Assembly: GCA_963575745.1 (NCBI GenBank)
Contig: CAUYUJ010022092.1
Location: 47,963-111,962 of the forward strand
Source of the DNA: Prorocentrum cordatum
Lineage: Eukaryota; Sar; Dinophyceae; Prorocentrales; Prorocentraceae
Length of the DNA stretch: 64,000 nt
Direction: 5' to 3'
Below, piece after piece: positions 44,348 to 63,590 of the stretch. The notes beneath the pieces were generated by a model. It was given only the letters and a program-made list of their open reading frames with translations, was not told the DNA's origin and did no database searches. Made by a program: the position numbers and the translations under genes. Within the stretch, counting starts at the first letter, position 1, and every line of letters starts with the position of its first letter.

Positions 44348-44372
44348 CGTATTAGTATGAGTAGGAGTAGTG

Positions 44373-44405
<33 letters not shown>

Positions 44406-44563: not shown

Positions 44564-44612
<49 letters not shown>

Positions 44613-45087
44613 TGTAATATTGGTAAGAGTAGTCGTAGCAGTAGTAGTAGTAGTAGTAATAGTAGTAGTAGTAGTAGCCGTAGTAGTAGTAGTAGTAGTA
44701 GTAGAAGTAGAAGTAGTCGTAGTAGTAGAAGTAGTAGTAGCCGTAGTAGTAATAGTAGGAGGACTTCTGGAGGGTGTAGTAGTATTAGTAGTGGTAGTAG
44801 CAGTACAATTCGTAGTATTCGTAGTAGTAGTTGTGGAGGGTATAGTAGTACAAGCAGTAGTGGTTGTAATAGTAGTGGTAATAGTGCTACTAGGAATAGT
44901 AGATATGGTACGACTAGAAGTCGGAGTATTAGTCGCAGTAGTAAGAGTAGTAGTAGGGGTAGTAGTAGTCGCAGTATTAGTCGCAGTATTAGTAGTAAAA
45001 GCAGTCGCAGTAGTAGTAGTAGGAGTAGTAGGAGTAGTAGTAGTAGTAGTAGTGGTAGTAGTAGTAGTAGGAGTAGTCGTAGTACTC

Positions 45088-45128
<41 letters not shown>
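43715..45128. repeat. (AGT)n array, left part
   Basis: About 1.4 kb of AGT trinucleotides with scattered CGT, AGC and AAT variants. It ends GTAGT directly at the TG of the 5' LTR and resumes at 63037 with GTAGT. Poly-Ser, poly-Val and poly-Thr open frames here are artefacts. Confidence 0.95.
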
Positions 45129-45324
45129 TGTGAATGGAACCCGTGTAATACCCTCATATATACTCCTTATCCTTACCTCTCCTGCGCCTGGCCGTTTGGG
45201 CTCAGGTATTGAGATAGATCGATCAGACCTTGATCGTGCGGGAGGGAAAGATATCCATCGATCCCTCCATCTCTCTACCAACGGATCAGGGGTTCTGTAC
45301 CCTTGCACTTCAACCCCATACACA
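45129..45324 (+). repeat. 5' LTR (196 bp)
   Basis: Starts TGTGAATGGAACCCGTGTAA and ends CAACCCCATACACA. Differs from the 3' LTR at six single bases and no indel. A TATATA-like word lies at 45156-45162; whether it is a promoter element in this host is unknown, as dinoflagellates generally lack canonical TATA boxes. Confidence 0.95.
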
Positions 45325-45336
45325 GGTTATCAGCCC
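45325..45336 (+). promoter_or_regulatory. Possible primer-binding site
   Basis: GGTTATCAGCCC directly follows the LTR. It resembles the usual copia site TGGTATCAG (3' end of initiator tRNA-Met) but is not identical, so priming by that tRNA is only plausible. A half-tRNA primer as in Drosophila copia is an alternative. Confidence 0.35.
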
Positions 45337-45467
45337 TTTAAAGCTCACCCTCACCGACTCGCCCGCGGTGATCTCGCATGCGAGCCTGATGGAGCCACTT
45401 CGGCGCATGCGCCGCAAGGGTTCCATCGGGGCTTCGCGTCCGAGCTCTCCCACGGCCCGACGGCTCG

Positions 45468-45950
45468 GTGACGAGTTGGAGAGCATTAGTGCGGACTGTG
45501 TTGGTGTTCCTGATACCCCCCCCCCCCAGCTCCGAAGGACCCGAGGCGCGACTAGCTGCTGAACTTCACCGCAGCGCCGCCCGCGGGGGGACAGGAGAAG
45601 GAGTAGGAACAGGAAGGAAGGAGTTTCACACGCCGACCTTCGATCCTCCCTCCCCTTCCCCGTCGGGAGCAATCCCAACCGCGTCAGGCGAAAGCCTTAC
45701 TGGTCTCGATACTCCAGGGCGCTTTCGCGCTAACCGCCGATGGACCTCAGGCGCTGGGACCCCCAGCCCTGCGACCGCCCCTGTGGCGGAGCACGTAGCC
45801 ACCTTCGAGGAACTCAGTAGACCAGCGTCGGCGCAGCCGCAGACGCGGTACCCCAAGGTATCATCGGATGAGACACCACACACATGGTCCGAGTCGCAGC
45901 TCGTCCGCGCGCAACCGCCGTGGAGCCCCAGGCCCATACGGCGAAAGTAG
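45468..45950 (+). CDS. Possible leader ORF upstream of Gag (160 aa)
   Basis: Open in frame 3, Pro/Ser/Thr-rich, ending SPRPIRRK. It overlaps the start of ORF1 (45868) by 83 bases in a different frame. Either it is a short leader protein, or the true Gag begins here and shifts +1 into ORF1, or it is an untranslated leader. The text (HVATFEELSRPASAQPQTRY) is protein-like, but there is no family match. Confidence 0.35.
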   Translation: MTSWRALVRTVLVFLIPPPPSSEGPEARLAAELHRSAARGGTGEGVGTGRKEFHTPTFDPPSPSPSGAIPTASGESLTGLDTPGRFRANRRWTSGAGTPSPATAPVAEHVATFEELSRPASAQPQTRYPKVSSDETPHTWSESQLVRAQPPWSPRPIRRK

Positions 45951-48900
45951 GTCGAGCCCGCGCGCTGCCTCTCAGAGGCCATGCACTCCCCGCGACAGGG
46001 GACACAGGGAAGCTGACGCTCCCCACCTCTCCATCTCAGACGACCAGCTGGCGGAGACGTCCGCCGCAGGTGACGTAGCTGAGCTCAGAGACCAGGTTGA
46101 AACCTTCGTGTCCAGTCAATACTCTGGACTGCTACAGAGCGTTCAGACGAACGCCACCGATACTGCAGCCACGCGCCGCGATCTTGACGGCGCCTTAGGG
46201 ATCATCGATTCCAGGATCGCCGAAGATCGACGCATCATAGGAGAACTGCAGTACCAGGTTGATCGTGAGGTGTCACACTCAGGTGAACGAACGGCGATGG
46301 TCGAGAACCTGCGCAACTATCTCGCGCAGATGGAGCAACAGCTTGTGCTCGTACGCGACACAGGCGTTTCCGCAGTCAGGATTTTACATGATGAGATCCA
46401 CGACCAGCTCCGCAACCGACCAACCCCAGCCGAGGCCACAGACCTTGGCGACGTTCAGTCTCAGATCAATGATCTTCGATCTTATCTAGACCACACTACG
46501 GCATCGCTTCGTACCGAAGCACACGCCAACTCGTCGAACCTGATCGACATGTTGCAGCGTACTGAGAGGGTCATCACTCAAAGGCTTGATGCGACCAACG
46601 CTGTCGTGCAGCCACTCGCTAACCGGATCTCTGACATAGAGCAGCGTTTTCCTGGTGTACAGGGCGCCCTGGCAGAGTTGCGTGTCGGACGAGCCCAGAC
46701 TGATCAGCTGGATTCTCCTCCCACGGTTTACGATTTCGCCCGCCTCACTGACAGGTTGCAGGAGGTTCAGAATGCGGCGGACCACGCGCAGTTGGAGCTC
46801 TCCCAGGTTATTCATGAAAGAGGTACTGAGAAGGCACGTGTGGAGAGTTACCTCGCACGTCTGGGAAGCGAGATGGAGGCACAAAGCGCCCGTCTCCGAG
46901 CATGCGAGCATCGACTTGATCGGCATTCACAACGTTCTCGGGATATTGATGAGTATACACGCCAAAAGGTGGGTCAAATACAAGAAGACATGACGAGCTG
47001 GACGAATCAGCTGATCGACCACACGAACGACACCAACCTTCACCTTCGACCTGCAGCCGACCCGCGCAGGCCGACGGCAGCGTCCGCCGAAGCACCACAA
47101 GCTTCCGCAGGACAACAACGACGTACGTCCCCAGGAGCAGCCTCCGCGGCAGCTTCTGCACAGACACGTCATGTGTCTCCTGTGTGCACAGAACCAACCA
47201 CCGACGGTGCGCCGATACCCTCACAACCATTGTCTGCGGTGTCGGTCCACACAACGACTCCTATCAAGGAGTCAGACACCGTCCGAGTGCCTGTCTTGCC
47301 TAAGATCACGCAGCTGCTGGAGTGGCAGCAAAGAGTGCGGAAGAACTTCGGGGCCGCCTCAGGGCGACCATCCAAAGCATACGCCTTCCTATGCGTGGCA
47401 GAACAGCCTGAATGTACATTCGAGGATTTACAAGACAGTGGAGACTTTGAGAGCATCGATTGCAAACTCGCTACCGCTCTGAGCGACATCTTATCCTCAG
47501 ATTTACGCTACCAAATCAGGCTCATCGAGACCAGAGAGCACAAAGCAGGACGCATGCTCAAAGGACGCCAAATCTACTGGCATATCCTACAGTCCTACAA
47601 AGTGACAGAAGTTGACGACGACCTGCACGATTTCGAGCGCCTTAAAGAACTGAGGATGAGAGATGACGATTTGCAACGTTTCATTACCGATTGGGACGCC
47701 TTACTCTTGGAATGCCGAGAAGTACCCGGTCCAAAGATGTTGGAATCGCTATTTCGTACACAGATTCGTCGACATGCATTGATGAAACAAGACGTGTACG
47801 AGTACCAGCGCATGAAGATGAGCGACCCGAATCGTACCTACGGTTGGCTTCGACAGCGTGTCCTGGACATACTGGAGATTAAACAATTGGAGCATAATCA
47901 AAACAAGCTACGGTACGAACATGAGGCACGATCTCAGGTCAACGCGTGTGCCGCATGGAAGAAAGGCAATTGTCGCAACGGTGAACGACGCAAGGCTTTG
48001 CATACGTATTCCAGGGATTGGAAGAAGAACAAATCTTTCAGAACATCAACGGCTGGTGGCAACCCCCGCCGTAGTATGTCCACTCCCGCGAACCACAAGA
48101 AGCCAGCATCGAAACCATTCTGCTTCGATTTCGCCAAGCGCAACACATGTACCAGAGGTGATAAGTGCAACTTCCCACACGTCGCACAGTGCAAAGATTT
48201 CGCACAGAACAAGTGCACAAAAGGCGACAAATGCAAATGCGCTCATCTTGCACCTGGCGCAAAGACTCCTGAACGAAGCCCGAGTCGACCACGGACCTCC
48301 AGCCAGGATAGCCGTGGCCGGTCACCATCCCGCGGATCAGGAAGCCAACGGTCGTCGCAACGCGGGGGGCTTCGCTACGCAAGCGATTCACGACATGGAC
48401 GTGACAACCGACGCCAATACGACCGATCCCGTTCGACATCTAGGAGGTCCCAAGACTCCCGCAGCCAATCGAGAAGTCGTTGCGACAGATCTTCGAGATC
48501 TACCTCCCGAGGACGAGACAATCGCGGCGGCGGACGCGGCAGTCCACGCGGCCGTGACAGATCATATGGTAGTGACAAAGGACGTGGCAAACGTTATCCG
48601 AGCCGCGGGTCGCCCCGTGGTTCTCCCAACACCAGAGCGCGTTCTCCTGCCAACTTTCGACGTTCACGCCGTTCAGACCGCAGTTGCGTCATCCTTGACA
48701 AGACCCCCATGGCCACCACTAAGGCCACAGCGACATCTACCAAGACACGTCGTCGGATACGCTTCGACGTGCGCAACGTGGACTACTACTTCCATACCAT
48801 ATCTGGCAGGGCCAGACTGGATAAATGGAAAGAGCTGCCGAACGAGGGTGACATCGTCAAAGTACCAGATCCATTACCACAACGATGGCGGGATGAAAGT

Positions 48901-51900
48901 GCAGATGCCTTACGAGAATGTCAAAAAGAGGCACAACTATGGTACGACGAACTGTATGACTACCGACACAACAAAGAGTCGGTGGCCACACCAACTGCGA
49001 TCCGAAAGCATGACGACACTGTCAAGCAGTCATCAATGACTGACCAGACGACCACAACGACAAAGCAAGTCGACCCTCCACGTTCGACTGCAGCATTGAC
49101 AAGGTCTTGGGTGCTCGACAGTGTTTCTGCCCATCATATTCAGGGTAAACACGAACTTACGCAGACCGAGTCGGATAGCATATCTATTCGCGAAGAGCAT
49201 ATTCTGGAAACCGCCAATGGTGATCGCACCGTCAATGAGCACTACGACATACGGCTACCCGAGGTTGGACTACATAGTTCAGCCCTTGCTTTGCCAGACT
49301 GCCCATCATTACTATCAGTTGGGAAATTAATTGAGGTTGATGGCTTTCGACAGCTTTGGGATCCTGAGCTGGGCTACCTGCTTCAGGATCCGGGGGGCCA
49401 ATGGTATAAGATTCCAGTCAACAATCGAGTGCCAGAGTTACGACTCGACGACTTAACACTGATACCACCACCACGTTTATGCACTTCGTCAGCACCCCGC
49501 CGTCGTCAGCGCAAGCGTTCATCCGCCCGCTGTAACGACACCTGCTGGTGCTGCAAAACTACAGAGCAACCAACCACTGCAGACGAGCTTCGGCCCCGCA
49601 GAGGGACCTGCCCCAAGAGACCACTTGTCGGAGAGGGAGGAGGAGCACGGACCACCACGGTCGAAGAACCTCCCGACACAAGCACAGACGAGCCCAACGT
49701 GGACACCACCACCGACTCGCCTACGTCTCAGACGCAGTGTTCTCCTCCACAATGCGGGGGGCTAGACATAGCTCAAACAGATAACGACATACCGACAGAG
49801 ACGCCTACACGAACGCATCACGACAACGATCGAGTTCCCCCCAACAGGCAAAAGAAACCGATCGACCCGATGCATTACATGTTTCACAGCCCAAAACACC
49901 CCGATTGTGAGATCTGTTCTCGTACGATGGCACAGAATGCCCCGTGTAGACGACAGCGCAAACCACGTCCACCGGCAGACCCCACCGACGAAGATAACGC
50001 CTACGAGGCTTTTGTCCCGAAGAAGTTCGGTGAGGCTCTAACTGCCGACCATATCGCACTGGCCAAAGACGATGCCGCGGACAAACATGGCGACAAATAT
50101 GCACTCGTTGTCCTCAACAGATACACCGGCATCTTCATGGCCTACCCAGCGCTCCACAAAGACGCAGCTACCACAAAGGCATCCTTTCAACAGTTCATCG
50201 CCGCGAACGATGAGGTAAAGCATATCTATACAGACAACTCTGGAGAGCTTCAGAAAGCTTGCCGCCAACTGGGATGGAGACACGACACGAGTACGCCACA
50301 TCGTCCGCAAACAAATGGATTGATTGAGCGCGTTGTCAAAATTGTCATTCTCGGTGCCAGAGCTGTGTTACATATGTCTGGTCTGGGACACGAATGGTGG
50401 AAAGAGGCCATGCAAGCCTTTTGCTGTGGACACAATTTTGTGCATGCATCCACGGGCGCGGCTGCCCTCAGCGAAGAACACGCAGAAAAGACAGCTCATG
50501 AAATACGATTTGGCGAAAGCTTTCCTGGGCACTGCATACCATTCGGTGCTCGGATCTTTTGGAAATGCCTCAACCCCGAGATTAACAACGAGACTGCAAA
50601 GTTTAAAGAAAATACTCGGGAAGGGTTATTCATGGGATACCACTTACACTCTGGTGGACGATGGTCAGGTGACTACCTTGTCTTGGACGCGGCTACATAC
50701 GCCAAGAATCCTGACGGTGAGCTGTGTCATGTGCACAGAGTCAAAGACATCATCATCCCTGATGGCAAGTTCACCTACCCAGTGATGAATGGTACTCTAC
50801 GACATCATAACCCTGAGGCACACGACGAGGTGAAGGCATCCACTTCTCGACCCTTGGGCGACGAGCCAACGCCGGATCCTCCACTTTCCTACCCTAAAGA
50901 ATGGGATGACCCATCTATGATGACAACGGAGGATAACGCTGTTGATATCCAGACATCGGCCTCTGAAGTCGCTGCGCCAGCGCCGGAGCCAGACTACTGG
51001 GAACAGCGTGGATATTGCGTCATCAGACATATCCGTACTCCAAGAAAGAAACTGTTCATCCCGACGGACGACGTCATGAACATACCTGTACCTGTTGATC
51101 AACTCGATGTGACACGAGATTTCAAAACGACTTCTACCTTTGAGGGAGAAAGTAACTTCCGAGACGTTTGGGATGGTGTTAGCGCCAACGACCACAGGGA
51201 GTTAAGTGAGCCGTGGACAGGCACGATTCAGTTCTATGAGCTTCCAAGAATAACGCCAGACGGCAAGATGGTGGTTCGTGGACGCGAGACACGTGTGCAG
51301 ACTACCACACGTCCTGATCACGTCCTTCCCGAGCATTGGAAAACACTTTCCCGTGGACAGCAAAAGAAAGAGATCGAATACGCCAACGACGTTAAACGAG
51401 CTCGCGAGATTCGTGATCGCGCTGCACTAAGAGTGTGGACAAGACAGGACAAACAGGTCAACAATTTCCGTACTACTACATCCGGCGGACCCACCTGGAA
51501 GACTGTGGAACGACGGATTACATACGACACTGACAATGGCGACGTCATCCGCGACGAAAGCGTCAAAGGCGTGACAAACAAAGAAATACTGTATGCCAAA
51601 TTACCTGGTGGGCCACGTGACATTACTACTGTGCTGTACTACCGTCAACTACCACAACAGCATGATGGAGAAGAACGTGCTTTGGTATTTGTGGATAATG
51701 AGGGAACCGACTTTGGGACTGTGAACCCGCTTATACGCAAGTTCACCCAGTCGGTAGCAATGCCAACCGTGCCACGTGAGACCAACTACACGCCGGCACA
51801 CAGAGATAAAATACCAGATTCAGCATGGTCACGCCCAGCACTAGTTACCAGAAGCCTGAGTGAGAAAGAAGTTGCCGCAGAACCACGTGCACAAGAAGCC

Positions 51901-51912
51901 CTGCGAAAATAA
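45868..51912 (+). CDS. ORF1: Gag, protease and integrase polyprotein (2014 aa)
   Basis: Start at Met 45868; no earlier in-frame Met known. Order: basic N-terminus; coiled coils (about residues 50-395); a Gag capsid-like helical domain (about 474-690); CCCH zinc fingers at 752 (C-x8-C-x5-C-x3-H) and 775 (C-x7-C-x5-C-x3-H), with a degenerate one at 694; an Arg/Ser-rich RS-like region (about 802-942); a copia aspartic protease block WVLDSVSAHHIQG (about 1081, D-S-V in place of the usual D-S/T-G); integrase zinc motif HSPKHPDCEIC (about 1340); catalytic D1394 (TADHIA), D1456 (YTDNSGE) and E1487 (TNGLIERV), 30 residues between the last two. The integrase C-terminal GYHLHSGGRWSGDY block follows. 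TAA at 51910. Complete frame over 6 kb argues for recent function. The altered protease motif is a possible defect. Confidence 0.88.
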   Translation: MRHHTHGPSRSSSARNRRGAPGPYGESRSSPRAASQRPCTPRDRGHREADAPHLSISDDQLAETSAAGDVAELRDQVETFVSSQYSGLLQSVQTNATDTAATRRDLDGALGIIDSRIAEDRRIIGELQYQVDREVSHSGERTAMVENLRNYLAQMEQQLVLVRDTGVSAVRILHDEIHDQLRNRPTPAEATDLGDVQSQINDLRSYLDHTTASLRTEAHANSSNLIDMLQRTERVITQRLDATNAVVQPLANRISDIEQRFPGVQGALAELRVGRAQTDQLDSPPTVYDFARLTDRLQEVQNAADHAQLELSQVIHERGTEKARVESYLARLGSEMEAQSARLRACEHRLDRHSQRSRDIDEYTRQKVGQIQEDMTSWTNQLIDHTNDTNLHLRPAADPRRPTAASAEAPQASAGQQRRTSPGAASAAASAQTRHVSPVCTEPTTDGAPIPSQPLSAVSVHTTTPIKESDTVRVPVLPKITQLLEWQQRVRKNFGAASGRPSKAYAFLCVAEQPECTFEDLQDSGDFESIDCKLATALSDILSSDLRYQIRLIETREHKAGRMLKGRQIYWHILQSYKVTEVDDDLHDFERLKELRMRDDDLQRFITDWDALLLECREVPGPKMLESLFRTQIRRHALMKQDVYEYQRMKMSDPNRTYGWLRQRVLDILEIKQLEHNQNKLRYEHEARSQVNACAAWKKGNCRNGERRKALHTYSRDWKKNKSFRTSTAGGNPRRSMSTPANHKKPASKPFCFDFAKRNTCTRGDKCNFPHVAQCKDFAQNKCTKGDKCKCAHLAPGAKTPERSPSRPRTSSQDSRGRSPSRGSGSQRSSQRGGLRYASDSRHGRDNRRQYDRSRSTSRRSQDSRSQSRSRCDRSSRSTSRGRDNRGGGRGSPRGRDRSYGSDKGRGKRYPSRGSPRGSPNTRARSPANFRRSRRSDRSCVILDKTPMATTKATATSTKTRRRIRFDVRNVDYYFHTISGRARLDKWKELPNEGDIVKVPDPLPQRWRDESADALRECQKEAQLWYDELYDYRHNKESVATPTAIRKHDDTVKQSSMTDQTTTTTKQVDPPRSTAALTRSWVLDSVSAHHIQGKHELTQTESDSISIREEHILETANGDRTVNEHYDIRLPEVGLHSSALALPDCPSLLSVGKLIEVDGFRQLWDPELGYLLQDPGGQWYKIPVNNRVPELRLDDLTLIPPPRLCTSSAPRRRQRKRSSARCNDTCWCCKTTEQPTTADELRPRRGTCPKRPLVGEGGGARTTTVEEPPDTSTDEPNVDTTTDSPTSQTQCSPPQCGGLDIAQTDNDIPTETPTRTHHDNDRVPPNRQKKPIDPMHYMFHSPKHPDCEICSRTMAQNAPCRRQRKPRPPADPTDEDNAYEAFVPKKFGEALTADHIALAKDDAADKHGDKYALVVLNRYTGIFMAYPALHKDAATTKASFQQFIAANDEVKHIYTDNSGELQKACRQLGWRHDTSTPHRPQTNGLIERVVKIVILGARAVLHMSGLGHEWWKEAMQAFCCGHNFVHASTGAAALSEEHAEKTAHEIRFGESFPGHCIPFGARIFWKCLNPEINNETAKFKENTREGLFMGYHLHSGGRWSGDYLVLDAATYAKNPDGELCHVHRVKDIIIPDGKFTYPVMNGTLRHHNPEAHDEVKASTSRPLGDEPTPDPPLSYPKEWDDPSMMTTEDNAVDIQTSASEVAAPAPEPDYWEQRGYCVIRHIRTPRKKLFIPTDDVMNIPVPVDQLDVTRDFKTTSTFEGESNFRDVWDGVSANDHRELSEPWTGTIQFYELPRITPDGKMVVRGRETRVQTTTRPDHVLPEHWKTLSRGQQKKEIEYANDVKRAREIRDRAALRVWTRQDKQVNNFRTTTSGGPTWKTVERRITYDTDNGDVIRDESVKGVTNKEILYAKLPGGPRDITTVLYYRQLPQQHDGEERALVFVDNEGTDFGTVNPLIRKFTQSVAMPTVPRETNYTPAHRDKIPDSAWSRPALVTRSLSEKEVAAEPRAQEALRK

Positions 51913-51942
51913 TACGAGAGATAGGAAAATAAACAAACATGG

Positions 51943-53436: not shown

Positions 53437-56400
53437 ATCTGAGATCGTTGCTCTTGATTCCGCACTACGACTGGAAGGGTTACCACTACTATCATTTTGG
53501 GAAGCCGTGGTGGGAGTTGCCAAAACATGCAAAGAGAAGAATGCATGCCTGAGCTGCCATCGACACGTCGACCCGGAGATGTGTCCTACACTAGCAGCCA
53601 AGAAGAAGCGTAAACCAACGCCTCGCAAGGCACCCCCTACACGGGGATCTTCTCCTAGCCGTAGGCAACTACCGCTAAATACGGATTTACCTACGCCTCC
53701 AAAGAGACGTACAATATCCCACGAAGGTGCAGTACTACACGTGGATCCAGAGCCAGCTCAAGAGATCAGTGCTCCCAAAGTACGTCTTATCGCCCTGGAG
53801 GATAACCAGGCCGTCATCAAAATTGCCCAAAAGGGACGTGCACCAGCACTTCGTCATCTTCATCGTACTCATCGTATCAATCTGGATTGGATATGCGAAA
53901 CATGCCAACTTGAACATATCGAGCTCAAATACGTAGGAACAAAAGAACAGATCGCAGATATGATGACCAAACATTTCGAGACGAAGAAAGCAGACCTTTG
54001 GAAGGATCTCTTGGAACACTCGCTTATCTTTCCCGCTACTCCGATACAATGTCCTCCGGTACGAGGGCCTCGAAGACCCGACGGTTTACCTCATGAAGCG
54101 GAACCTCCTAAACTGAATGGATGCCCATACATATGCAAGATATTGCTGACGGAAAAAGAAAGATGGGGCGAGGTAGGATCAGAATGCGGATTTCAGTGTG
54201 TTGGGCAAGCTAATCACGAGGGACTATGTGCATGCATGTACCACATTGGCGTACCAGCCGCAGATATTGCGTCGCGCACACCTCGTTCACGCGCACGTTC
54301 CCCGCACGGTAGACATCCCCGTCGTCCTCCCTCGCCTCCACGAGATGCAGAGAAAATTAGGACATTGATTATTCGTTCATGCCGCAGCAATTTTACGACT
54401 CGAGCAACAAAGCTTACAAGCATCTTGTTCGCCGCTTGCGAGGCGAATGTAAGTGAGATCGGTTCTAATCCCGACCCCCCCACCCACGAGATGGATCAGG
54501 CACAGCCGCTCCACCTCGTCGGCTGGCCCATCGGCTACGACACGGAGTGCGACCCGAACGCCAGGGACGACGACCGCGCGGGCGTCACGTACCACGCTCA
54601 AACTGGTCGTCCTCGTGATCCGGAAGACGGTTACATATACATACATCAACGGCGTGCTGATCGAAGCGGAGAGTTCGATCTTCGCGTGCCCGACGAATCC
54701 TCTATTCGAGATTTTGCCCGTTTCGCGTCCGTCGAGGCTAAGAGATGGGCCAATACCGGGAGTGGATCCGTCGGCGGCAACGCCAACTACGAGTACAACG
54801 CGTTCACAGCTACGCCGTGGCTATCATTCATGCGTGCTATGTGTATGATTTCCAGTCTTTTCAATCGTAATCCCTCAGTGCAAGAAAGTGTTCGTGGACT
54901 ACATGATCACTTGAACGCGGTGATCCCAGGATCGCACCGCAAGTGTCCACCAGAAGACTTTACGACAATGATACTGAAAACGGAGTGGATGATGATTCGC
55001 AACGATTGGTCCAAACTTGGCAGTGCAGTACTGGGACAATACGCCGAGGACAGCGTTCGGGATACACAAAGATACTACAACAATGGTCTGTGTGCACCAT
55101 CCGATGTATACCAGAATGGATTGGTAACGCCATGCTATGCTCCTAAAATCGATCGTGCAACGGCCAAGTTGCCCACTCGCCCACCTGGCATTGCCAGGAC
55201 ATCGGATACATCTGGACACATCGGCCATATTGTTGAAGATAATTTGGTCACCAACATGAGAGCATTTTCCGACCTTAACCAAACAAACAAATTTCGCCGC
55301 AAGCTTACTACATGGCTAACTGCGCGCGGAGGCTCTGGAAGTATCGGATCAAACTCCAAGACGGTGGCAACACCATCCGACCATGCGAATGGTTGGGTGG
55401 CGATATTGGACGATCCACACGATACAGAACGTACCTATCGTTGGACACCATACAACGAGGGCAACGACTTCTTCGGCGAAGCCGCTGACCAGATCGGTTC
55501 GAATGACCCTGGCCTTACTCCTGGTAATGATGTTGACCCATTTGAGCTGGACCACGCAAAATACAGTGCTTTCTGCGGTGGTCGCTTGGTTTCTACCCTA
55601 CTTTCAGATAATGGGTGGCACTCCATCATACAAGGGGACTTGGGACTACTATTGCATCATGCGTTTGGGCCATCGGGTCACGCGTACAAATGGACCAACT
55701 TGTACACTGACTCAACATGGATCATGCAGCCCAAGAAAGGGGCCAAGAGTGCAAAACACAAGAAGTATCCTACTTTCGGCACCGACGAGCTCAACGCTGC
55801 CCAGAAGAGAATCGACCTCGCCAATGCATCAAATACTGCTCTTGTGCCGCTATTTATGCCGTGCCTCAACCGCGCGGAATACATGGGCGGCGCTACTCTT
55901 GAGCATTTGTCGACCATTATCCGCGACGACATCATGATGTGGGCATTTTCCTTTGGCAATTATAGGGAATGGTTCAGACAGAATGACACGCCGATCGGTC
56001 AAGTTTGCGTGTGCTTGCCTGAAGCTGGTTATGACGACATACGCTATGGTATGGAACAACTACGCAAGCAACGTTTCGAGAAAGAGGATAGCCGTACCGA
56101 CGCTATTCTCAACAACCAGTTTGAGAACACTCTCGAGCAGCGCAATATGATCAGGAAGATCCGCGAAGCCAGAGGCCTCATGTTTCAAAGCGACAACGCT
56201 TCTATCAAGAAGTGGCGCGAGTTAAACGAGACTATCTGGGATTACTGGGCCAACGATTTCCCATCATACGTGAAACAAAAACACGATTGCAGGGGACTTA
56301 ATGTCATGGTGGTATGGAGCGCGAACGACATTGCATGTGCCAATCACGGACAAAACACAGTCGACATGCGCCGACATCAGAATCGTGTTCCTACTAACGT

Positions 56401-56938
56401 ATACGAGCTCCAAAAGATGGAATGTGAGGGCGGCGTCCCGACGCTCATGCCCGTACACGTGCTCGTGGACGTGTCGCGTTTTGTCGACGTGATGCAGTAT
56501 TTCCGCTGCCCCACGGTCATGGGGCCTGGAAAAGCAGCGCAATGGGGCGCACATCCGAACTTTGATCACCACACGAGCGACCTGATCAATATCATGCAGA
56601 ACCGTGGTATCACTGTTCTTCCATCCGACCATTGGGTGGATACGTACGATAGGATTACCCCTCAGGCCTGGCACGCCAAGCAGAACAACCATAACATGGC
56701 AATGTTTACAACGCAGTTCTGCGACGCAGTATGCTATCGCAATTTCTGCGCTTTGATACAGTCTCTACCTTCTCAGCCTTATCCATTCAGGCCGCCATTG
56801 CTGACCGCTATCACAGACGATCAGGCCTACACGCAGGCCAAAAGAAATCATGGCAGCCCTCGATTTCAGAGAAAAGATGACAAACGAATGGAAAAGAGAT
56901 CTCAGCCTCACGACGTTGATGACACAGACGGCAAATGA
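53348..56938 (+). CDS. ORF3: rest of RNase H plus ~950-residue novel domain (1196 aa)
   Basis: Copia homology starts at about residue 29 (PTESEIVALDSALRLEGL, 53432), giving the Glu of RNase H missing in ORF2; the last catalytic Asp is D152 (LEDNQAVIK) and the end signature is KYVGTKEQIADMMTKHF (about residue 200). A basic Cys/Lys/Pro-rich insertion splits RNase H (residues 60-140). After residue 228 copia homology ends. Beyond: a Cys/His cluster (CGFQCVGQANHEGLCAC, about 280), a basic Pro/Arg stretch (about 310-332), and a long folded-looking region (about 370-1170) with well-mixed composition and many Trp/Tyr/Asp. I do not recognise it; VMVVWSANDIAC (about residue 987) faintly resembles the Asn-Asp block of SGNH hydrolases, but no GDS motif is seen. 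Ends 89 bases inside ORF4. Confidence 0.8.
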   Translation: MFLLRLLDPMRSFQSTLYVRNKRLFHSPTESEIVALDSALRLEGLPLLSFWEAVVGVAKTCKEKNACLSCHRHVDPEMCPTLAAKKKRKPTPRKAPPTRGSSPSRRQLPLNTDLPTPPKRRTISHEGAVLHVDPEPAQEISAPKVRLIALEDNQAVIKIAQKGRAPALRHLHRTHRINLDWICETCQLEHIELKYVGTKEQIADMMTKHFETKKADLWKDLLEHSLIFPATPIQCPPVRGPRRPDGLPHEAEPPKLNGCPYICKILLTEKERWGEVGSECGFQCVGQANHEGLCACMYHIGVPAADIASRTPRSRARSPHGRHPRRPPSPPRDAEKIRTLIIRSCRSNFTTRATKLTSILFAACEANVSEIGSNPDPPTHEMDQAQPLHLVGWPIGYDTECDPNARDDDRAGVTYHAQTGRPRDPEDGYIYIHQRRADRSGEFDLRVPDESSIRDFARFASVEAKRWANTGSGSVGGNANYEYNAFTATPWLSFMRAMCMISSLFNRNPSVQESVRGLHDHLNAVIPGSHRKCPPEDFTTMILKTEWMMIRNDWSKLGSAVLGQYAEDSVRDTQRYYNNGLCAPSDVYQNGLVTPCYAPKIDRATAKLPTRPPGIARTSDTSGHIGHIVEDNLVTNMRAFSDLNQTNKFRRKLTTWLTARGGSGSIGSNSKTVATPSDHANGWVAILDDPHDTERTYRWTPYNEGNDFFGEAADQIGSNDPGLTPGNDVDPFELDHAKYSAFCGGRLVSTLLSDNGWHSIIQGDLGLLLHHAFGPSGHAYKWTNLYTDSTWIMQPKKGAKSAKHKKYPTFGTDELNAAQKRIDLANASNTALVPLFMPCLNRAEYMGGATLEHLSTIIRDDIMMWAFSFGNYREWFRQNDTPIGQVCVCLPEAGYDDIRYGMEQLRKQRFEKEDSRTDAILNNQFENTLEQRNMIRKIREARGLMFQSDNASIKKWRELNETIWDYWANDFPSYVKQKHDCRGLNVMVVWSANDIACANHGQNTVDMRRHQNRVPTNVYELQKMECEGGVPTLMPVHVLVDVSRFVDVMQYFRCPTVMGPGKAAQWGAHPNFDHHTSDLINIMQNRGITVLPSDHWVDTYDRITPQAWHAKQNNHNMAMFTTQFCDAVCYRNFCALIQSLPSQPYPFRPPLLTAITDDQAYTQAKRNHGSPRFQRKDDKRMEKRSQPHDVDDTDGK

Positions 56939-59231
56939 GATGGCTCATTGTGCGTGGATGGCATCATGTGCCGATGGTGCATTGCCGGCATCACTGCCTG
57001 CCGAAGCAGGCGACACCATTGAGCCTACTCCTGGAATGTCGACACGTACGCCAGCACCTGATCCTGGCGATCCTGACAAAACCCTTCCTGATAATGATCC
57101 ATGGGTTATTGCATACAACGACTTATTCCAGTACCTGATGCTGTTGATCAAAGACTACCCTGGGGCTTGGGCATCTTGGCATTCTCTTGAGAAAATGGAA
57201 CTCCTACATCCCAAGATTGTCAAAACTGTTGAAGATGCACATGCAGTTACTTGGGTTGTGTTCGAGCAATTCTTACATCAGATCAAAGATTTGGATGGGG
57301 ATGATAATGCGACCAAAGCAAGAATCATTGCAGAAGATAACAGGTTGACTTCTCACTGCATCGGCCCAGCTGCCGCGAACGAGAAGAACATCGAAGCATG
57401 CAAAACATTCTTCAAGCAGAATGCACTGGATCGGGTTGCTTTGGGTCATGACCCCGATGTTCCTACAGCCGTATGGAAGGCAGCTGCTGATACAGCACAG
57501 CCAGCCCCACCAGGCCCATTGCCTGATCCACTGCAACCTGGACCGCAATCGATAAAAGTGTCGCAACCATCGACTCCCGAACCCAAAGCAGAACAGCAGC
57601 CAGCAGATCAGCTCCCCAAGGCTGAGGCGGTACCGGTTCCTGACGACGGCACTGACCTCGAGGCCATGGAGCTGGAGGCAACTCCTGCCGAGGAGGGCCC
57701 GTCTCCACATGAAATGAATATATTATCATGGCAGGACAGCTGTGAGCGTTCCATGCACGAGGACATCAGCAAGATCGGGATATTCGATAACGCATGCACT
57801 ATTCGAGAGTGGAAGCTACAAGCAGGCATCAAAGATGACCATCCGTACATGTGCCCAATGTTACGGGGCACGCGCGCGACCAATGGATTTGCCTGCGTGG
57901 AAGACCATGACTGGTACGATCAACTGTTGCATGATGATAGTGTGATTGCTCATGCGCCTGACATCGCACAGTCTGGTTGCTTCCCAGAGTGGAAATGGAT
58001 ATCATTACCACATTATGACGATGTACGTTATGGTCCCGAGCTAATTGAAGAAGAATGGCTGGGAGCAATCAAATGGATGAGCAAATACATAACGACTATG
58101 TTACGCCATGAGATTCACTATAAAAAGTTTTGGATCAATCAATTTCATGATAGACGTATCAATATCTGGGAGAAAACAACAAAGAATGAATGGAATATTC
58201 CAAGCAATTGGAAATCCTTTAAAGAGATGGTCGAATGGAAATTCAGAGATCGCAAAGACAGACACAATGGACCATCCATGGAAGCGGCAGTGGCACATTT
58301 TAAGAAAGATGGTGAAAATGATGGATATGCCGATTGGAACGACTACTACCCGATATTCATCATTCGTGCGTTCCAGAAACATATTGATTCGCAGAAAAAC
58401 AGAATCGAGATATATGCCAAGCCGATCCCTGAGGGAGGTGACCCCAGTTCTTTTGACTGGAACAGCGTCATCGCTATTCGATGCGTTTCTGGTCACAGTT
58501 GTGTCAATCCATCTTCCAAGCCATGGAATATGGGATGGGAGAGCCTACAATGGACAGATGTTAAATATCTCCATCACGGCACAGCATCCCGCGCTTGGAA
58601 AAACATATTGAAGACAGGGATCATTCCTGGATGCGTCGATCCATCTTCTCAGAGAGACAAACATCATAAACCATCACAGCGCTCTGAGGCATTCTTTAGT
58701 GCTAGCACATATTTGAACAATGTCCAAAATAATCCACACACTTCAGTGGAATCATACAAGTTCAATAACTACAAGAACGAGGTCGAGCTGGTGATCAACA
58801 TGGAGATCGCCACAAAAGCAGGTTGCAGATTTTGGCTGGGTGCTCAGGGCGCTATCATGACAGAGGACGCGGTACCCGCTGCGGCAATTATTGCAATTCG
58901 CCGCCTCAAACCACACCACATGCATGGCCAGCAGTTATGGCCAGATGGCGACCCGTGGGACTACCCGCCATTGGCAGCAAGACAGCCATTGAGCAAGTAC
59001 GAGATTTGCGCCTACCTTCCTGGAGAGCTCATCGACGACCCTCCTGGGATAGCACCTGTCAACCCCGACCAGAACATGGAGCCTCCAAGGACAACGTCAG
59101 CATCAGCACCTTCGGTCCAGCTGGGGGAAACCCCTGCTAGCCGTACATCTGCAGACGACGCCTTGGATGAACAAATAGTCCGCGCTATGGTTCGGGAGAC
59201 CAATCACAAAGCAGATGATAAAGAATGGTGA
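56850..59231 (+). CDS. ORF4: protein with Tpt1/KptA-like RNA 2'-phosphotransferase domain (793 aa)
   Basis: Starts Met 56850, overlapping ORF3 by 89 bases in the next frame. Residues 1-210 helical; 215-285 Pro-rich linker; 290-540 Trp-rich and charged, unrecognised. Residues about 540-690 show the Tpt1/KptA order: IRCVSGHS (R544, H549; family I-R-x-x-x-G-H-S), LHHGT (H576; family L-x-H-G-T), then ILKTGIIPG, a His/Arg-rich loop with SEAFFSAS (family R-x-H-V-H-L-S position, diverged), ELVINMEIATKAG (family beta strand), and GAIMTEDAVP (family G-V-x-L-T...VP). Tpt1 removes the 2'-phosphate left by RNA ligation, transferring it to NAD; the fold is that of ADP-ribosyltransferases, so another NAD-using activity is possible. 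The downstream Arg residues of the classic tetrad are not securely aligned. Confidence 0.65.
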   Translation: MAALDFREKMTNEWKRDLSLTTLMTQTANEMAHCAWMASCADGALPASLPAEAGDTIEPTPGMSTRTPAPDPGDPDKTLPDNDPWVIAYNDLFQYLMLLIKDYPGAWASWHSLEKMELLHPKIVKTVEDAHAVTWVVFEQFLHQIKDLDGDDNATKARIIAEDNRLTSHCIGPAAANEKNIEACKTFFKQNALDRVALGHDPDVPTAVWKAAADTAQPAPPGPLPDPLQPGPQSIKVSQPSTPEPKAEQQPADQLPKAEAVPVPDDGTDLEAMELEATPAEEGPSPHEMNILSWQDSCERSMHEDISKIGIFDNACTIREWKLQAGIKDDHPYMCPMLRGTRATNGFACVEDHDWYDQLLHDDSVIAHAPDIAQSGCFPEWKWISLPHYDDVRYGPELIEEEWLGAIKWMSKYITTMLRHEIHYKKFWINQFHDRRINIWEKTTKNEWNIPSNWKSFKEMVEWKFRDRKDRHNGPSMEAAVAHFKKDGENDGYADWNDYYPIFIIRAFQKHIDSQKNRIEIYAKPIPEGGDPSSFDWNSVIAIRCVSGHSCVNPSSKPWNMGWESLQWTDVKYLHHGTASRAWKNILKTGIIPGCVDPSSQRDKHHKPSQRSEAFFSASTYLNNVQNNPHTSVESYKFNNYKNEVELVINMEIATKAGCRFWLGAQGAIMTEDAVPAAAIIAIRRLKPHHMHGQQLWPDGDPWDYPPLAARQPLSKYEICAYLPGELIDDPPGIAPVNPDQNMEPPRTTSASAPSVQLGETPASRTSADDALDEQIVRAMVRETNHKADDKEW

Positions 59232-59426
59232 ATTGCCTTGTCATACTGTCGCGAAGCTCTTCGACCGATCACATCGAAGATCATGCAAAAAGATTGGGGC
59301 CGTCGCCCTGCATTTAATGATGTTCGAATGGGAGACTTCATTGTCGTCAAGAATCGGGGTTCTACCAAATGCTTTATTACGACAATCACTGGCCCAAGGG
59401 CAATCACAATACCAAAATTGCCTTGA
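59232..59426 (+). CDS. In-frame extension after the ORF4 stop
   Basis: After the TGA at 59229 the same frame stays open to 59426 and reads ALSYCREALRPITSKIMQKD and DFIVVKNRGSTKCFITTITG, which is protein-like. It could be a readthrough extension of ORF4 or a remnant of a longer protein broken by the stop. No family match. Confidence 0.35.
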   Translation: MALSYCREALRPITSKIMQKDWGRRPAFNDVRMGDFIVVKNRGSTKCFITTITGPRAITIPKLP

Positions 59427-59863
59427 CCAAGGGACACATATATGGTCCAATCATCCATTTCGGCATCTTCGACAAGTTCTTCGCGGTACAAGTACCTATT
59501 CTCAACTACGGTTTACGATGGGTAAACCTATGGTATAATGACAAAAGCATGCCCCTCAAGTGCGTTGTCTTTGCATTACCGATTCGTATCGAAGAACACG
59601 CCATTGACCCAACATATATGGACACCGCCTTGAAAAAGGTCCAACATCATGCAGCGAAAAGATACTCCAGCACAAGATTGATGGCAGTTTACCATACCTT
59701 GGTATGCCGAGCATTCATAGACCACGTATTCCGCGTACACCGCCCAGAAGGCCCGCTCCTCGGACACCCGATCCCGACGAGCTGGTGGCCACACCTGCCG
59801 AGGACAACGCTCATGCGGGCGACTCTCCTCGACAGACTGCAGCATCATCGCGTGATCCTTTGA
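59369..59863 (+). CDS. ORF5: unrecognised small protein (164 aa)
   Basis: Frame 2, overlapping the ORF4 extension at its start and ORF6 by 160 bases at its end. The first ~110 residues (MLYYDNHWPKGNHNTKIALT to about AVYHTLVC) look folded, with aromatic and hydrophobic residues spaced regularly; the last 50, over the ORF6 start, look like a frame shadow. No motif recognised. May be the continuation of ORF4 after a frameshift. Confidence 0.4.
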   Translation: MLYYDNHWPKGNHNTKIALTKGHIYGPIIHFGIFDKFFAVQVPILNYGLRWVNLWYNDKSMPLKCVVFALPIRIEEHAIDPTYMDTALKKVQHHAAKRYSSTRLMAVYHTLVCRAFIDHVFRVHRPEGPLLGHPIPTSWWPHLPRTTLMRATLLDRLQHHRVIL

Positions 59864-61623
59864 TCGCCGTAATCGTGGGCATATCGAACATGACGCTCAC
59901 CGCTGATGAGAAAGCTGCGAACGACAACATGAGAGCAGATCTCTCGGCAGACATCCAAGCAGATGAGCAGATTGAGGCAAGCATAATCGGCAACATCATT
60001 GGCCCGTCATCGGACTTCCTTAACCATCCTGATTACGACCCCGACGAGGATTCAAGATGGATTAAACAGTCAGATGACTGCCGTGTATATTGTTGGACAT
60101 CTGAGCTGCTGGTGGGTTCGCCTATGATCAAGATGAAACAGATCATCGAGATACACAGTGGCGCGGACAGAATTGTAATGGACAAAACACAATCGCATTT
60201 ACAATTTGAGATTCGATTTGGATCGACAGCATGGAATGCAGAGTCATACCAATTGAATTACGATCATACCCACAAATGGGCACGTGACTTACCAAATTGC
60301 AGCGCAGATCATTTCTTCAAAAAGTTGGTACATTACCTCGACCCAGAGACTATCGAGGATTCGACCACAGGCATCTTTCAATGGATCTCCAAAGTATACC
60401 AGAACATGTTGAAAGATAGTATTGCGGAGCTTCCAGATTTCACCAAAGAGGCCATCCATGAGAAACATCCTGCACTCCAGGCATTGCGTGACCTATTCAA
60501 AAATTGCACTGAGACATACGGTAATCCAGACTTTCCTGTATGGGAAGAGCTGGTGGAAACACCTGCTGCGCCTCGTGAGCAAGGCGCTGAGCAGGATATT
60601 CCCCAGGATCCAGGCAGCGTTGCGTCTGCAGCTCCCCATCAGGAAACCATGGTACGTATCTTAGCCGAGCAGACGGGACGCAAGCGCGAGGAGGGCGACA
60701 ACGAGGCTACCTTGCAGGAGAAAGCTCGCCGTCTTCGTGAAGAGAACGTATGCCATGGCGGTACCGAGGATACGGACAACACCAAGCTAGAGTACAAAGG
60801 ACTGCCAGGGGAAAGATTGTCTAGGATCGAGATCGAGGGTTTAAGTAGATCAATCGCTTCCCGACCGAACACCGAGACGAATCGTGAGGCGATCAATCAG
60901 ATCGGCCAGAGCCTCGCTCGCGGTCAGGACACCCGCTGGGGATCCCGCGATCACCTCACATCGGAAGGGGCCCCCGAGACGATCTTGCATCCCATACCGC
61001 TGTGTCAGAATTGCGGTCGAGATCTGTCCCTTGGGATTGTCACAGGTGACGGCACACTTTGTGATATCTGCTGGCAGTATACCGTGGCCGTAGGCGCCAC
61101 GGGTAAGAGCACCGCCACACAGAGCGATCTCGCGTACCTCCAGAAGCTGACGAACTGGATCAAGACGACACCCTCTGAGGACCACATCGCGAGATACATG
61201 AAGGACGGTGCGCACGTCATTATGACGGGCGCGCGATCGCACGCAGGCAATGAGAAAGATCAGTTGCGGAGATTGGCCAATGCGTCCAGAAAGAGGCATC
61301 AGAAGTGGGTCGAATCAGGTAGCCCTGCTGCACACGAGTGCAGACTGATGGGCGAATCCGAGGACGACCGACCTCTGTACTACCCATTCGCCAATCTCGT
61401 ACAACGCTTTCTCAACGACCTCAAGTTCCACCACCAAATGACAGGTGCCCGCGCGAACATCGGCAAGAAGCCCTGGACCGTGGAGGACATGCGCGATGCG
61501 TGGGACATCCTCGACGTCAGTATTAGGACAGGACAGGCTGGTCGGAGGAAATGGTGGCTGAACGAGGGGCGCCTCGACAGGCAGACGCGGCAGGCCCGCG
61601 GACTGGTCGCGGTTTCTCCCTAG
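59704..61623 (+). CDS. ORF6: unrecognised protein with zinc ribbon (639 aa)
   Basis: Start at Met 59704 in a Pro/Arg-rich N-terminus (to about residue 50), then an acidic helical part, a folded-looking region (about 100-280, SEIHSG/KKLVHYLDPETIED type), a charged linker (about 290-410), a four-Cys zinc ribbon C434-x2-C437...C453-x2-C456 (CQNCG...CDIC), and a helical, basic C-terminal third ending LVAVSP. No known enzyme motif. The ribbon and basic C-terminus suggest nucleic-acid binding; that is inference. Lies between ORF5 and ORF7 on the same strand and is a clean 1.9 kb frame, so it is probably a real protein of the element. Confidence 0.7.
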   Translation: MPSIHRPRIPRTPPRRPAPRTPDPDELVATPAEDNAHAGDSPRQTAASSRDPLIAVIVGISNMTLTADEKAANDNMRADLSADIQADEQIEASIIGNIIGPSSDFLNHPDYDPDEDSRWIKQSDDCRVYCWTSELLVGSPMIKMKQIIEIHSGADRIVMDKTQSHLQFEIRFGSTAWNAESYQLNYDHTHKWARDLPNCSADHFFKKLVHYLDPETIEDSTTGIFQWISKVYQNMLKDSIAELPDFTKEAIHEKHPALQALRDLFKNCTETYGNPDFPVWEELVETPAAPREQGAEQDIPQDPGSVASAAPHQETMVRILAEQTGRKREEGDNEATLQEKARRLREENVCHGGTEDTDNTKLEYKGLPGERLSRIEIEGLSRSIASRPNTETNREAINQIGQSLARGQDTRWGSRDHLTSEGAPETILHPIPLCQNCGRDLSLGIVTGDGTLCDICWQYTVAVGATGKSTATQSDLAYLQKLTNWIKTTPSEDHIARYMKDGAHVIMTGARSHAGNEKDQLRRLANASRKRHQKWVESGSPAAHECRLMGESEDDRPLYYPFANLVQRFLNDLKFHHQMTGARANIGKKPWTVEDMRDAWDILDVSIRTGQAGRRKWWLNEGRLDRQTRQARGLVAVSP

Positions 61624-61681
61624 AAGGGACGGAACCCGTGAACAGTTCACTCAGCGTAAGCTTGCCGCAATTGCCAATGAG

Positions 61682-62158
61682 TTGTTAGGCTCCCTCGGTC
61701 CGGCACATGCCGACCAGAGGGGGGTTTATGCAGGGATGAGAACCGATCCCGATACACAATCCCACCAGTCCGATGATGCCATGGAGCCGCGCCATCCGCG
61801 GCCGCCGCCGCGCCCTGCCCCTGGCGATGCTGCTGCGTCCAGCGCCTCAGGCGCGACGGACTACACGCCCGCGGGGCCGCGTGCCAAGAGAGCGCGTACA
61901 TCAGATTACGCCGCGTACTGGCGCGACGACCTCGAGGACAGCTACTGGGGTCTCAGGTACTGGAGTTACTACATCAACTGTTGGATCTACATCGCGATCA
62001 ACAACGATGAGTACGTATACATCCAGGACATCACGTGCAATGATTGGTTTCGCAACTGGATCCCGAGAACGGCTTGGGAGACATTCACGACGAGCTACGT
62101 GACGTACAACGGCCAGAGGATGTGGGACCGCAGGTTCTACAAGAACGGCAACACGTAG
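61682..62158 (+). CDS. ORF7: small Tyr/Trp-rich protein (158 aa)
   Basis: Starts Met 61682, 58 bases after ORF6, in frame 2. N-terminal half Pro/Ala-rich with a basic AKRARTS word (possible nuclear signal); C-terminal half very rich in Tyr, Trp, Asp and Asn (WRDDLEDSYWGLRYWSYYIN type), ending KNGNT. Unrecognised. The start could be a later Met (61739 or 61781). A hairpin follows directly. Confidence 0.55.
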   Translation: MLGSLGPAHADQRGVYAGMRTDPDTQSHQSDDAMEPRHPRPPPRPAPGDAAASSASGATDYTPAGPRAKRARTSDYAAYWRDDLEDSYWGLRYWSYYINCWIYIAINNDEYVYIQDITCNDWFRNWIPRTAWETFTTSYVTYNGQRMWDRRFYKNGNT

Positions 62159-62175
62159 TGAGTCGGCCGCAAGGC

Positions 62176-62227
62176 CCACCGCTCAAAGGCGTGAACTTCG
62201 ATAACCAAAGTTCGCCTTGAGCGGTGG
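62176..62227. terminator. Strong stem-loop after ORF7
   Basis: CCACCGCTCAAAGGCG-TGAACTT pairs with AAGTTCGCCTTGAGCGGTGG across a CGATAACC loop: about 20 base pairs with small mismatches. 17 bases after the ORF7 stop. May be a 3'-end, RNA-stability or packaging signal of the element; role inferred. Confidence 0.6.
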
Positions 62228-62243
62228 CTATTACATACTTTTA

Positions 62244-62272
62244 GGCCACTTCATTCTATAACACAAGTGGCC
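62244..62272. repeat. Second small hairpin
   Basis: GGCCACTT (62244-62251) and AAGTGGCC (62265-62272) are exact reverse complements around a 13-base loop, shortly after the larger hairpin. Confidence 0.55.
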
Positions 62273-62829
62273 ACACACACACAAATACCTTTTGCGATGA
62301 CCGAGGCAGCCTCCCAAGGAGCAACGCCAACGGGAGCCGCCAAACAGAATTTATACACATGAGTTTTCGTGTTCATCAACGCGACATTCTGTCTGGCCAG
62401 ACATTTACTTTCACACGAAGATGTGTTCAATTTAAAGATCGTGTTTGTCAACGCGACCTTAGCATGCATATTTTAGCAGTTTAAACCTGATTGCGTCGAG
62501 AATAATCTGATTGTTGGTGGCAACACCTGCCTCGCAGAAGCGAGGCAGTTTGCATGTTGCTTTAACGCTCAGATCTTCTTTCTCCGCCCACCCTTGTCTC
62601 ATTCTTCTCCGCCCTCGAGTGCCGAAGCGTTTTGGGGGGCGCACCGAGGGGGCACCAAAGCGTGCCTGGCGAAGAAAGGGGGGCTCAGGGTGCTCCTTCT
62701 AACTTCACTTTGCAGCTGTGGCTTCGCTGATTTTAAGCCCAGCTGCCTCCTGACTTAAGGACTAAAGGAGTTCAGAGGTTACGGATTCCCTTCCTCTGTT
62801 CCCGAGTCCTGCCTTCACGGGCGGGATTC
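62273..62829 (+). other. 3' untranslated region of the LTR element
   Basis: About 560 bases without a gene. A word (G)TCAACGCGAC occurs at 62375-62384 and 62448-62457. Nothing else recognised. Confidence 0.5.
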
Positions 62830-62840
62830 GGGACGGGGGG
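62830..62840 (+). promoter_or_regulatory. Polypurine tract
   Basis: GGGACGGGGGG directly before the 3' LTR, the usual plus-strand primer position. One C interrupts the purines. Confidence 0.6.
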
Positions 62841-63035
62841 TGTGAATGGAACCCGTGTAATACCCTCATATATACTCCTTATCCTTACCTCTCCTGCGCC
62901 TGGCCGTTTGGGCTCAGGTAGTGAGATAGATCGATCAGACCTTGATCGCGCGGGAGGGAAAGATATCCATCTATCCCTCCTTCTCTCTACCAACGGATCA
63001 GGGGTTCTGTACCCTTGTACTTCAACCCCATAAAC

Positions 63036-63036
<1 letters not shown>
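62841..63036 (+). repeat. 3' LTR (196 bp)
   Basis: Begins TGTGAATGGAACCCGTGTAA and ends CAACCCCATAAACA. Same length as the 5' LTR, six substitutions. Confidence 0.95.
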
Positions 63037-63083
<47 letters not shown>

Positions 63084-63549
63084 CGTGGTAGTAGTAGTAG
63101 TAGTAGTAGTAATAGCAGTAGTAGTAGTAGCATTAGTATTAGTAGTAGTAGCAGCAGTATTAGTAGTAGTAGTAGTCGTCGTAGTGGTCATAGCAGTCGC
63201 ATTATTATTAGTAGTAGTAATAGTAGTAGTAGTAGCAGAAGTAGTAGTGGTAGTGGTAGTAGTATTAGTCGTAGTAAGAGTAATAGTAGTAGCAGTAGTA
63301 GTAGTAGTAGTGGTGAACGTAGTAGACGTAGTAGTAGTAGTAGCACTAATAGTAGTAGTAGTAGTAGTAGTAGTAGTTGTTGCAGTAGTAGTGGTAGTCG
63401 TCGTAGTAGTTGTAGTAGTAGTAGCAGTAGTCGTGGTAGTAGTAGTGGTAGTAGTAGTAGGAGTAGGAGTAGGAGTAGGAGTAGGAGTAGTGGTCGTAGT
63501 AGTAGTGGTAGTAGTAGTACTACTACTACTACTAGTAGTCGTTGTAGTC

Positions 63550-63590
<41 letters not shown>

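Follow-up and report, generated by a model that had tools for sequence, protein, structure and literature searches.

Transcript length, the processivity of reverse transcriptase and packaging are considered to restrict how much a retrotransposon can encode (PMC6431247). Giant retrotransposons carrying cellular domains are already known, and the locus described here is compared with them below. It is a long terminal repeat (LTR) element at positions 45129-63036 (+ strand; 17,908 bp) of a 64,000-nucleotide window of DNA from the dinoflagellate Prorocentrum cordatum. The words 'LTR' and 'retrotransposon' have no occurrence in the main text of the P. cordatum CCMP1329 genome paper (PMC10666404). 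Like the Ty1/copia elements (Pseudoviridae), this one has LTRs, a short (5-bp) target-site duplication, a purine tract, an integrase placed before the reverse transcriptase, and, below its Pfam cut-off, RVT_2 as its sole reverse-transcriptase match. Unlike them, its polyprotein does not end after RNase H, which is usual in Ty1/copia but not required, and runs on for about 2700 codons.

Among plants, LTR lineages of both superfamilies without extra open reading frames (ORFs) average 4.8-11.5 kb, and the largest elements recorded across green plants, at up to 24 kb, belonged to Gypsy (PMC6317226). Sireviruses of the SIRE/Maximus type, 74% of which have a 3' extra ORF, resemble the P. cordatum element as Copia members with coding sequence after RNase H; their additional ORF is separate and highly variable (PMC6317226), whereas here the added sequence shares one frame with pol and is under purifying selection. 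The planarian Gypsy element Burro encodes a giant polyprotein with cellular-type domains (ORF1 of 4873 amino acids, and 5140 in Dugesia; PMC6431247). It exceeds 30 kb, has long LTRs and carries some of its extra domains before the protease, unlike the present Copia element with 196-bp LTRs and an extension after RNase H. The order of Burro-type Gypsy giants, with integrase after RNase H, was not found here. An RNA-modifying type of domain in an LTR element has a parallel in Phalaenopsis, where an N6-methyladenosine (m6A) demethylase domain is carried by elements that are Gypsy, with a separate ORF2 of 565 amino acids and LTRs of 6.4 kb (PMC9289625). The same paper surveyed 121 angiosperm genomes and reported 15 unusual domains, every one of them in Gypsy elements and not one in Copia (PMC9289625). 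In dinoflagellates, the retrotransposons SymbioLINE-Dnmt and SymbioDIRS-Dnmt3 have captured modifying enzymes that are under purifying selection (PMC5890265); these differ in being a long interspersed nuclear element (LINE) and a DIRS element with DNA methyltransferases (DNMTs), and that paper states that no DNMT domain is present in Symbiodinium Copia elements (PMC5890265). A search of titles and abstract openings, with most subscription papers and all bioRxiv preprints outside its scope, gave neither a Copia polyprotein this long nor a Tpt1-like domain in a retrotransposon.

The reading frame and its copies in the genome

The window element very probably belongs, as a decayed copy, to an autonomous family of Copia-type LTR retrotransposons, in which a single polyprotein (5591 codons in the copy C1598) runs about 2700 codons in frame past RNase H. 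In a first-pass annotation of the window, a giant Copia element with roughly 8 kb of additional coding sequence had been postulated; the extra sequence, some 8.1 kb after RNase H, is present, and the proposal is supported, as one polyprotein. The same annotation had read this sequence as separate ORFs (the rest of ORF3, then ORFs 4, 5, 6 and 7), and in this respect it was mistaken. In another copy, C16544, one uninterrupted frame of 2659 codons occupies the stretch equivalent to window positions 54182-62156, and its translation contains pieces of all five window ORFs. Five relatives in EukProt (P0011, P0014, P0021, P0022 and P0024) cross the ORF3/ORF4 boundary, from extension A into extension B (Table 1), in one frame. 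Decay of the window copy has broken a single frame into the pieces read as ORFs 3-7.

Open frames of at least 5400 codons were found in 10 of the best 98 reverse-transcriptase matches (of 42,761 candidates), three of them with exactly 5671 codons. The open frame of C1598 is of this length; it opens within the 5' LTR, and 5591 codons lie between the first ATG after the LTR and the stop. The ends of this frame were read directly, and the openness of its middle rests on the frame length in the list of reverse-transcriptase matches. A longer frame in C489 (7081 codons) was discarded, since it extends into a run of 2700 N at that copy's 3' end. Four of the eight copies (L009, L013, L017 and L019) have a stop codon in common between the protease and integrase regions, at about 49.67 kb of the window; the remaining four, among them the window copy, carry a sense codon there, and this stop could mark a subfamily or a read-through site.

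The genome searched comprises 4.128 Gb in 21,875 contigs, and the dinoflagellate spliced-leader 21-mer has 14,218 exact occurrences in it (reversed control, 0). Two checks suggested by the first-pass annotation, a search for the LTR elsewhere in the genome and for the extra region in other copies with the same LTRs, both gave positive results. With the LTR as query, the best 40 of 1637 candidates are 97-100% identical, and same-strand LTR pairs spaced 17.3-17.7 kb lie on seven contigs besides that of the window. The seven comparison copies were picked by this spacing, with both LTRs among the best matches, and are thus LTR-to-LTR by selection; all seven contain the extra 8.1 kb, and their second halves are 92.8-96.5% identical to that of the window element. 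Mismatches between paired LTRs number 1 to 3 of 196 in these copies compared with 6 of 196 in the window, which thus holds an older copy. Genome-wide 30-mer counts that allow up to two mismatches fall from 618 (reverse transcriptase) through 541 (extension A) to 288 (extension C), with 0 in the reversed controls. Furthermore, 55 contigs are common to the lists of reverse-transcriptase matches (best 98 of 42,761) and Tpt1-domain matches (best 150 of 1461). Among the matches listed, the two are 6287-6294 bases apart, as in the window, in 51 of these contigs; the spacing in the remaining four is 6273, 6277, 6598 and 34,629.

The Copia domain order given in the first-pass annotation was confirmed, in that Pfam places the integrase core (about 50.08-50.31 kb) upstream of the reverse transcriptase (about 52.07-52.63 kb). 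The integrase match (rve, ORF1 residues 1405-1480) has an E-value of 2.4e-5, under the cut-off, and PDB matches of this region are retroviral integrases (best E 0.0021). RVT_2 was matched by ORF2 (5.2e-7, 30.0 bits) and by the copy C19770 (3.6e-6, 27.2 bits; cut-off 31.6). RNase H had no Pfam match in the element and was recognized in the window by motifs read by eye in the translations. Pfam likewise gave no match for an aspartic protease in the interval from gag to integrase; by eye, a DSVSAHH stretch ahead of the integrase is presumably the active-site motif of a putative protease. The gag region has CCCH zinc fingers (zf-CCCH, two stretches, ORF1 residues 752-771, about 48.12 kb; 5.5e-4, 20.2 bits, cut-off 20.5); the usual zinc motif of Copia gag proteins is a CCHC knuckle. 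A coiled-coil-like match to Baculo_PEP_C in gag (23.8 bits, cut-off 38) was set aside as an effect of composition.

Several observations weigh against a conserved autonomous family of this kind. The count for extension C is less than half of that for the reverse transcriptase, and there may be copies without the C-terminal part, or faster divergence there. The frame of the window copy is interrupted at several points, and frame breaks or deletions occur in the other seven as well; in C16544, for example, about 250 bp of the reverse-transcriptase region are missing, and in C16157 about 400 bp upstream of that region. In addition, the RVT_2 and integrase scores are both below their Pfam cut-offs.

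Selection, domains and relatives of the extension

Purifying selection, a further check suggested by the first-pass annotation, is evident throughout the extension. The ratio of nonsynonymous to synonymous distances (dN/dS) was obtained from all pairs of the eight copies by Nei-Gojobori counts, excluding codons with gaps or stops. Over the whole extension it is 0.257 (dN 0.0376, dS 0.1463), with a codon-bootstrap interval of 0.230-0.288 that is somewhat too narrow because pairs share ancestry. Nine sub-regions range from 0.195 to 0.321, every upper bound lying below 0.48, and nine blocks of at most 300 codons from 0.15 to 0.35; the same columns read in the other two frames give 1.23 and 1.35. 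Blocks of gag-pol in the same copies have values of 0.14-0.40. The distance in the 3' non-coding stretch, 0.072, is greater than dN and smaller than dS of the extension, and since it falls below dS, synonymous sites are not a plain neutral yardstick here. At 30 further loci dN/dS is 0.08-0.22 over a stretch that begins at the integrase end, takes in RNase H and reaches only about 130 bases into the extension; these loci had been selected for protein similarity to the reverse transcriptase, a choice that depresses dN in that part. Purifying selection on the extension is as strong as on the replication proteins.

The only domain above cut-off after RNase H is PF01885, the RNA 2'-phosphotransferase family Tpt1/KptA (query 58350-58990; 5.6e-7, 30.2 bits, and 28.6 bits in a second Pfam run; gathering score 26). 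The Tpt1/KptA family of PHROGs was matched too (E 0.0053). Direct comparison with Escherichia coli KptA gave 30.4 bits, spanning IR..GHS to HGTASR...I..G, and the motifs IR..GHS, HGTASR, G.I.G and FW...G are common to both proteins. The arginine of IR..GHS is aligned in all eight copies and in both relatives that cover it. The HGT motif, which we take to be part of a site for nicotinamide adenine dinucleotide (NAD), is kept in seven of the eight copies (C16766 has HDT) and in two of the three relatives reaching it (P0007 breaks off there).

An Arg-His-Arg-Arg tetrad is essential in Tpt1 (PMC6582358). The PF01885 profile was matched only from position 70 of 177, and the N-terminal lobe with the RH pair is unaligned. 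With a putative placing of the tetrad on the E. coli KptA motifs, one of its four positions aligns with KptA (the arginine of IR..GHS), and the RH pair and the last arginine do not. Other results tell against the assignment as well: hhalign gave a probability of only 10% for the domain alignment against KptA, the NCBIfam Tpt1 models, whose cut-offs exceed 230 bits, scored 11-12 bits, and searching the PDB with the single domain or with its own alignment (A2, without KptA) returned no Tpt1 structure. A PDB search with an alignment containing E. coli KptA did return Tpt1 structures, but is circular and is not used as evidence. A structure model of the region was too poor to help (mean predicted local distance difference test score, pLDDT, 36.4). 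Judged from its motifs and profile matches, the domain is Tpt1-like and not a proven Tpt1.

On either side of this domain, extension A had only sub-threshold matches in Pfam, NCBIfam and PHROGs and no significant structure match, and extension C only sub-threshold matches in the same three databases (in Pfam, zinc ribbons with E 0.1 and 0.25). An SGNH hydrolase at the end of extension A, prompted by a WSANDI ... WH pattern seen by eye, was dropped as no significant family or structure match was found.

Relatives outside the genome were found in EukProt: seven proteins for the Tpt1-like part (61-80% identity) and 21 for the end of extension A (70-94%). These proteins (P0002-P0008 and P0010-P0030) are fragments recorded under Pyramimonas sp.; a green alga is a surprising origin for them. 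Running numbers in that data set go above 9 million, and a dinoflagellate in that culture is as likely a source as transfer. A search with ORF3 as query, limited to proteins 0.55 to 1.75 times the query length, found no homologue, and a shorter query found the 21. Among viral contigs there was no confirmed relative of the Tpt1-like domain or of the extension A end.

Ends, insertion site and feature coordinates

The first-pass annotation had described LTRs of 196 bp with six mismatches and a purine tract, and both descriptions are accurate. The two LTRs compare without gaps, starting with TGTGAATGG and ending with ACA, and the tract, GGGACGGGGGG, directly adjoins the 3' LTR. The target-site duplication that it had proposed, GTAGT, is indeed present at both flanks. 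A long, imperfect (TAG)n array lies on both sides of the element (44059-45128 and 63037-63915) and is interrupted by it, however, and GTAGT is weak evidence of duplication in the window because the periodicity of the array could produce it. The matter is settled by perfect 5-bp duplications in six of the seven other copies (TTGTG, TTTGG, AGTCA, CAGAC, CTCAG and TGCAT), at unrelated sites; the seventh matches at four of five bases. A target preference for (TAG)n was rejected, as none of the seven other copies lies in such an array. The insertion site of C16766 is another GT-rich imperfect repeat.

Directly after the 5' LTR, the sequence GGTTATCAGCCC (45325-45336) resembles, with one mismatch, a half-tRNA-Met primer site and is a putative primer-binding site. 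The 5' leader of C1598 has a strong predicted hairpin around the first ATG (z -5.27; none of 200 shuffles equally stable), which may be a packaging or dimerization signal. In the corresponding part of the window (45350-45480) one pair is changed on both sides relative to C1598 (G-C / A-U), and pairs are disrupted in C16544, both by eye. Coordinates of all features are collected in Table 1. Elsewhere in the window, ORFs at 2529-4823 and 8510-9460 with Exo_endo_phos (5.2e-7) and RNase H (1.1e-5) domains are likely to be parts of at least one LINE-type element.

Table 1. Features of the Copia-type element in the P. cordatum window.
Feature	Position	Strand	Evidence or remark
5' LTR	45129..45324	+	196 bp; 6 mismatches to 3' LTR; best 40 of 1637 genome candidates at 97-100%
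Primer-binding-site region and 5' leader	45325..45480	+	Predicted hairpin around first ATG in C1598
ORF1: opening part of polyprotein, broken here; gag (CCCH zinc fingers), protease region and integrase	45868..51912	+	zf-CCCH, rve; dN/dS 0.15-0.35
ORF2: Copia-type reverse transcriptase, then the beginning of RNase H	51943..53436	+	RVT_2
Remainder of RNase H, start of ORF3	53348..54030	+	Motifs by eye
Extension A, rest of ORF3, about 900 codons	54182..56890	+	dN/dS 0.253 (0.203-0.319); 21 EukProt relatives of C-terminal end
ORF4: extension B, proline-rich linker and Tpt1-like domain	56850..59231	+	
Tpt1/KptA-like domain, C-terminal lobe	58350..58949	+	PF01885; dN/dS 0.195 (0.125-0.323); best 150 of 1461 genome candidates
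ORF5: first part is a further piece of the polyprotein frame	59369..59863	+	Comparison with continuous frame of C16544
ORF6: extension C, CxxC-CxxC zinc-ribbon-like motif	59704..61623	+	
ORF7: aromatic-rich C-terminal end of polyprotein	61682..62158	+	dN/dS 0.273 (0.160-0.473)
3' non-coding region, purine tract at end	62159..62840	+	
3' LTR	62841..63036	+	196 bp; LTR-LTR comparison

Possible roles of the extension

The origin of the extension can be weighed from its position, frame and composition. A nested insertion, in which a separate mobile element or a block of host genes lies inside an ordinary Copia copy, would fit a region that is as long as a second element and looks like several ORFs in the window. 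This is scarcely credible, given that the extension recurs in all seven other LTR-to-LTR copies at unrelated sites, is in one frame with pol and keeps its A-B join in the five outside relatives; its common position and frame in other copies led to the rejection of this idea, although no search was aimed at a target-site duplication of the extra region itself. Placement after pol, and length, would also suit an envelope-like region, as proposed for the 3' ORFs of Sireviruses, and the element would then be a retrovirus-like agent. We consider this very unlikely, as the extension matches no glycoprotein family, is in frame with pol and forms no separate ORF. Nor is a clear membrane anchor apparent: no 19-residue stretch of the C16544 extension exceeds a mean hydropathy of 1.51, and the usual threshold for membrane segments is about 1.6.

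Taking the extension as an integral part of the element, it would be translated within Gag-Pol as one polyprotein, could be released by the element's own protease, and would aid the element's replication or persistence. A role in the element's own spread is suggested because selection acts through transposing copies. The first-pass annotation had spoken of accessory functions, and the extension may have them; one of its domains is Tpt1-like and the others are unrecognized. Tpt1 enzymes take off 2'-phosphates and add ADP-ribose to RNA ends that bear a 5'-phosphate (PMC6582358), and because they carry out such reactions, NAD-dependent modification of RNA ends is our favoured, if tentative, guess. 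The Tpt1-like domain would bind NAD and act on RNA, modifying or protecting the ends of the element RNA, its primer or a limiting host RNA, and the flanking domains would bind RNA or protein. A close rival, because the tetrad is degenerate, gives the extension a structural role: it would enlarge the virus-like particle or the machinery that packages RNA, and the Tpt1-like fold would be only a scaffold that binds RNA without catalysis. This has a real chance of being correct, though well short of even. It would explain why a single tetrad position aligns with KptA while IR..GHS and HGT persist, it is in keeping with the zinc-finger-like motifs and proline-rich linkers of the extension, and a long RNA would require a large particle; the retention of HGT in nearly all copies and in most of the relatives reaching it argues the other way. 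The domain could instead serve in counter-defence, neutralizing RNA surveillance by the host. This is suggested by analogy with the RNA demethylase of orchid Gypsy elements (PMC9289625) and the DNMTs of dinoflagellate retrotransposons (PMC5890265), and seems unlikely.

A fuller picture, and a rather doubtful one, is that Gag-Pol has become a multi-enzyme polyprotein of about 5600 residues. It would include a NAD-dependent RNA-end enzyme of Tpt1 type, with a diverged active site, acting on the element's own RNA, the tRNA primer or host RNA, and several further domains, without known relatives, equally required for spread. A Copia family of many copies in which one frame exceeds 5500 codons, with half of that length unrecognized and the whole conserved, suggests that in dinoflagellates the limits on coding capacity are softer than has been assumed. 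The family also offers a testable case of a NAD/RNA enzyme fold recruited by a mobile element, beside the DNMTs and the RNA demethylase of other retrotransposons, with hundreds of natural copies available for following selection.

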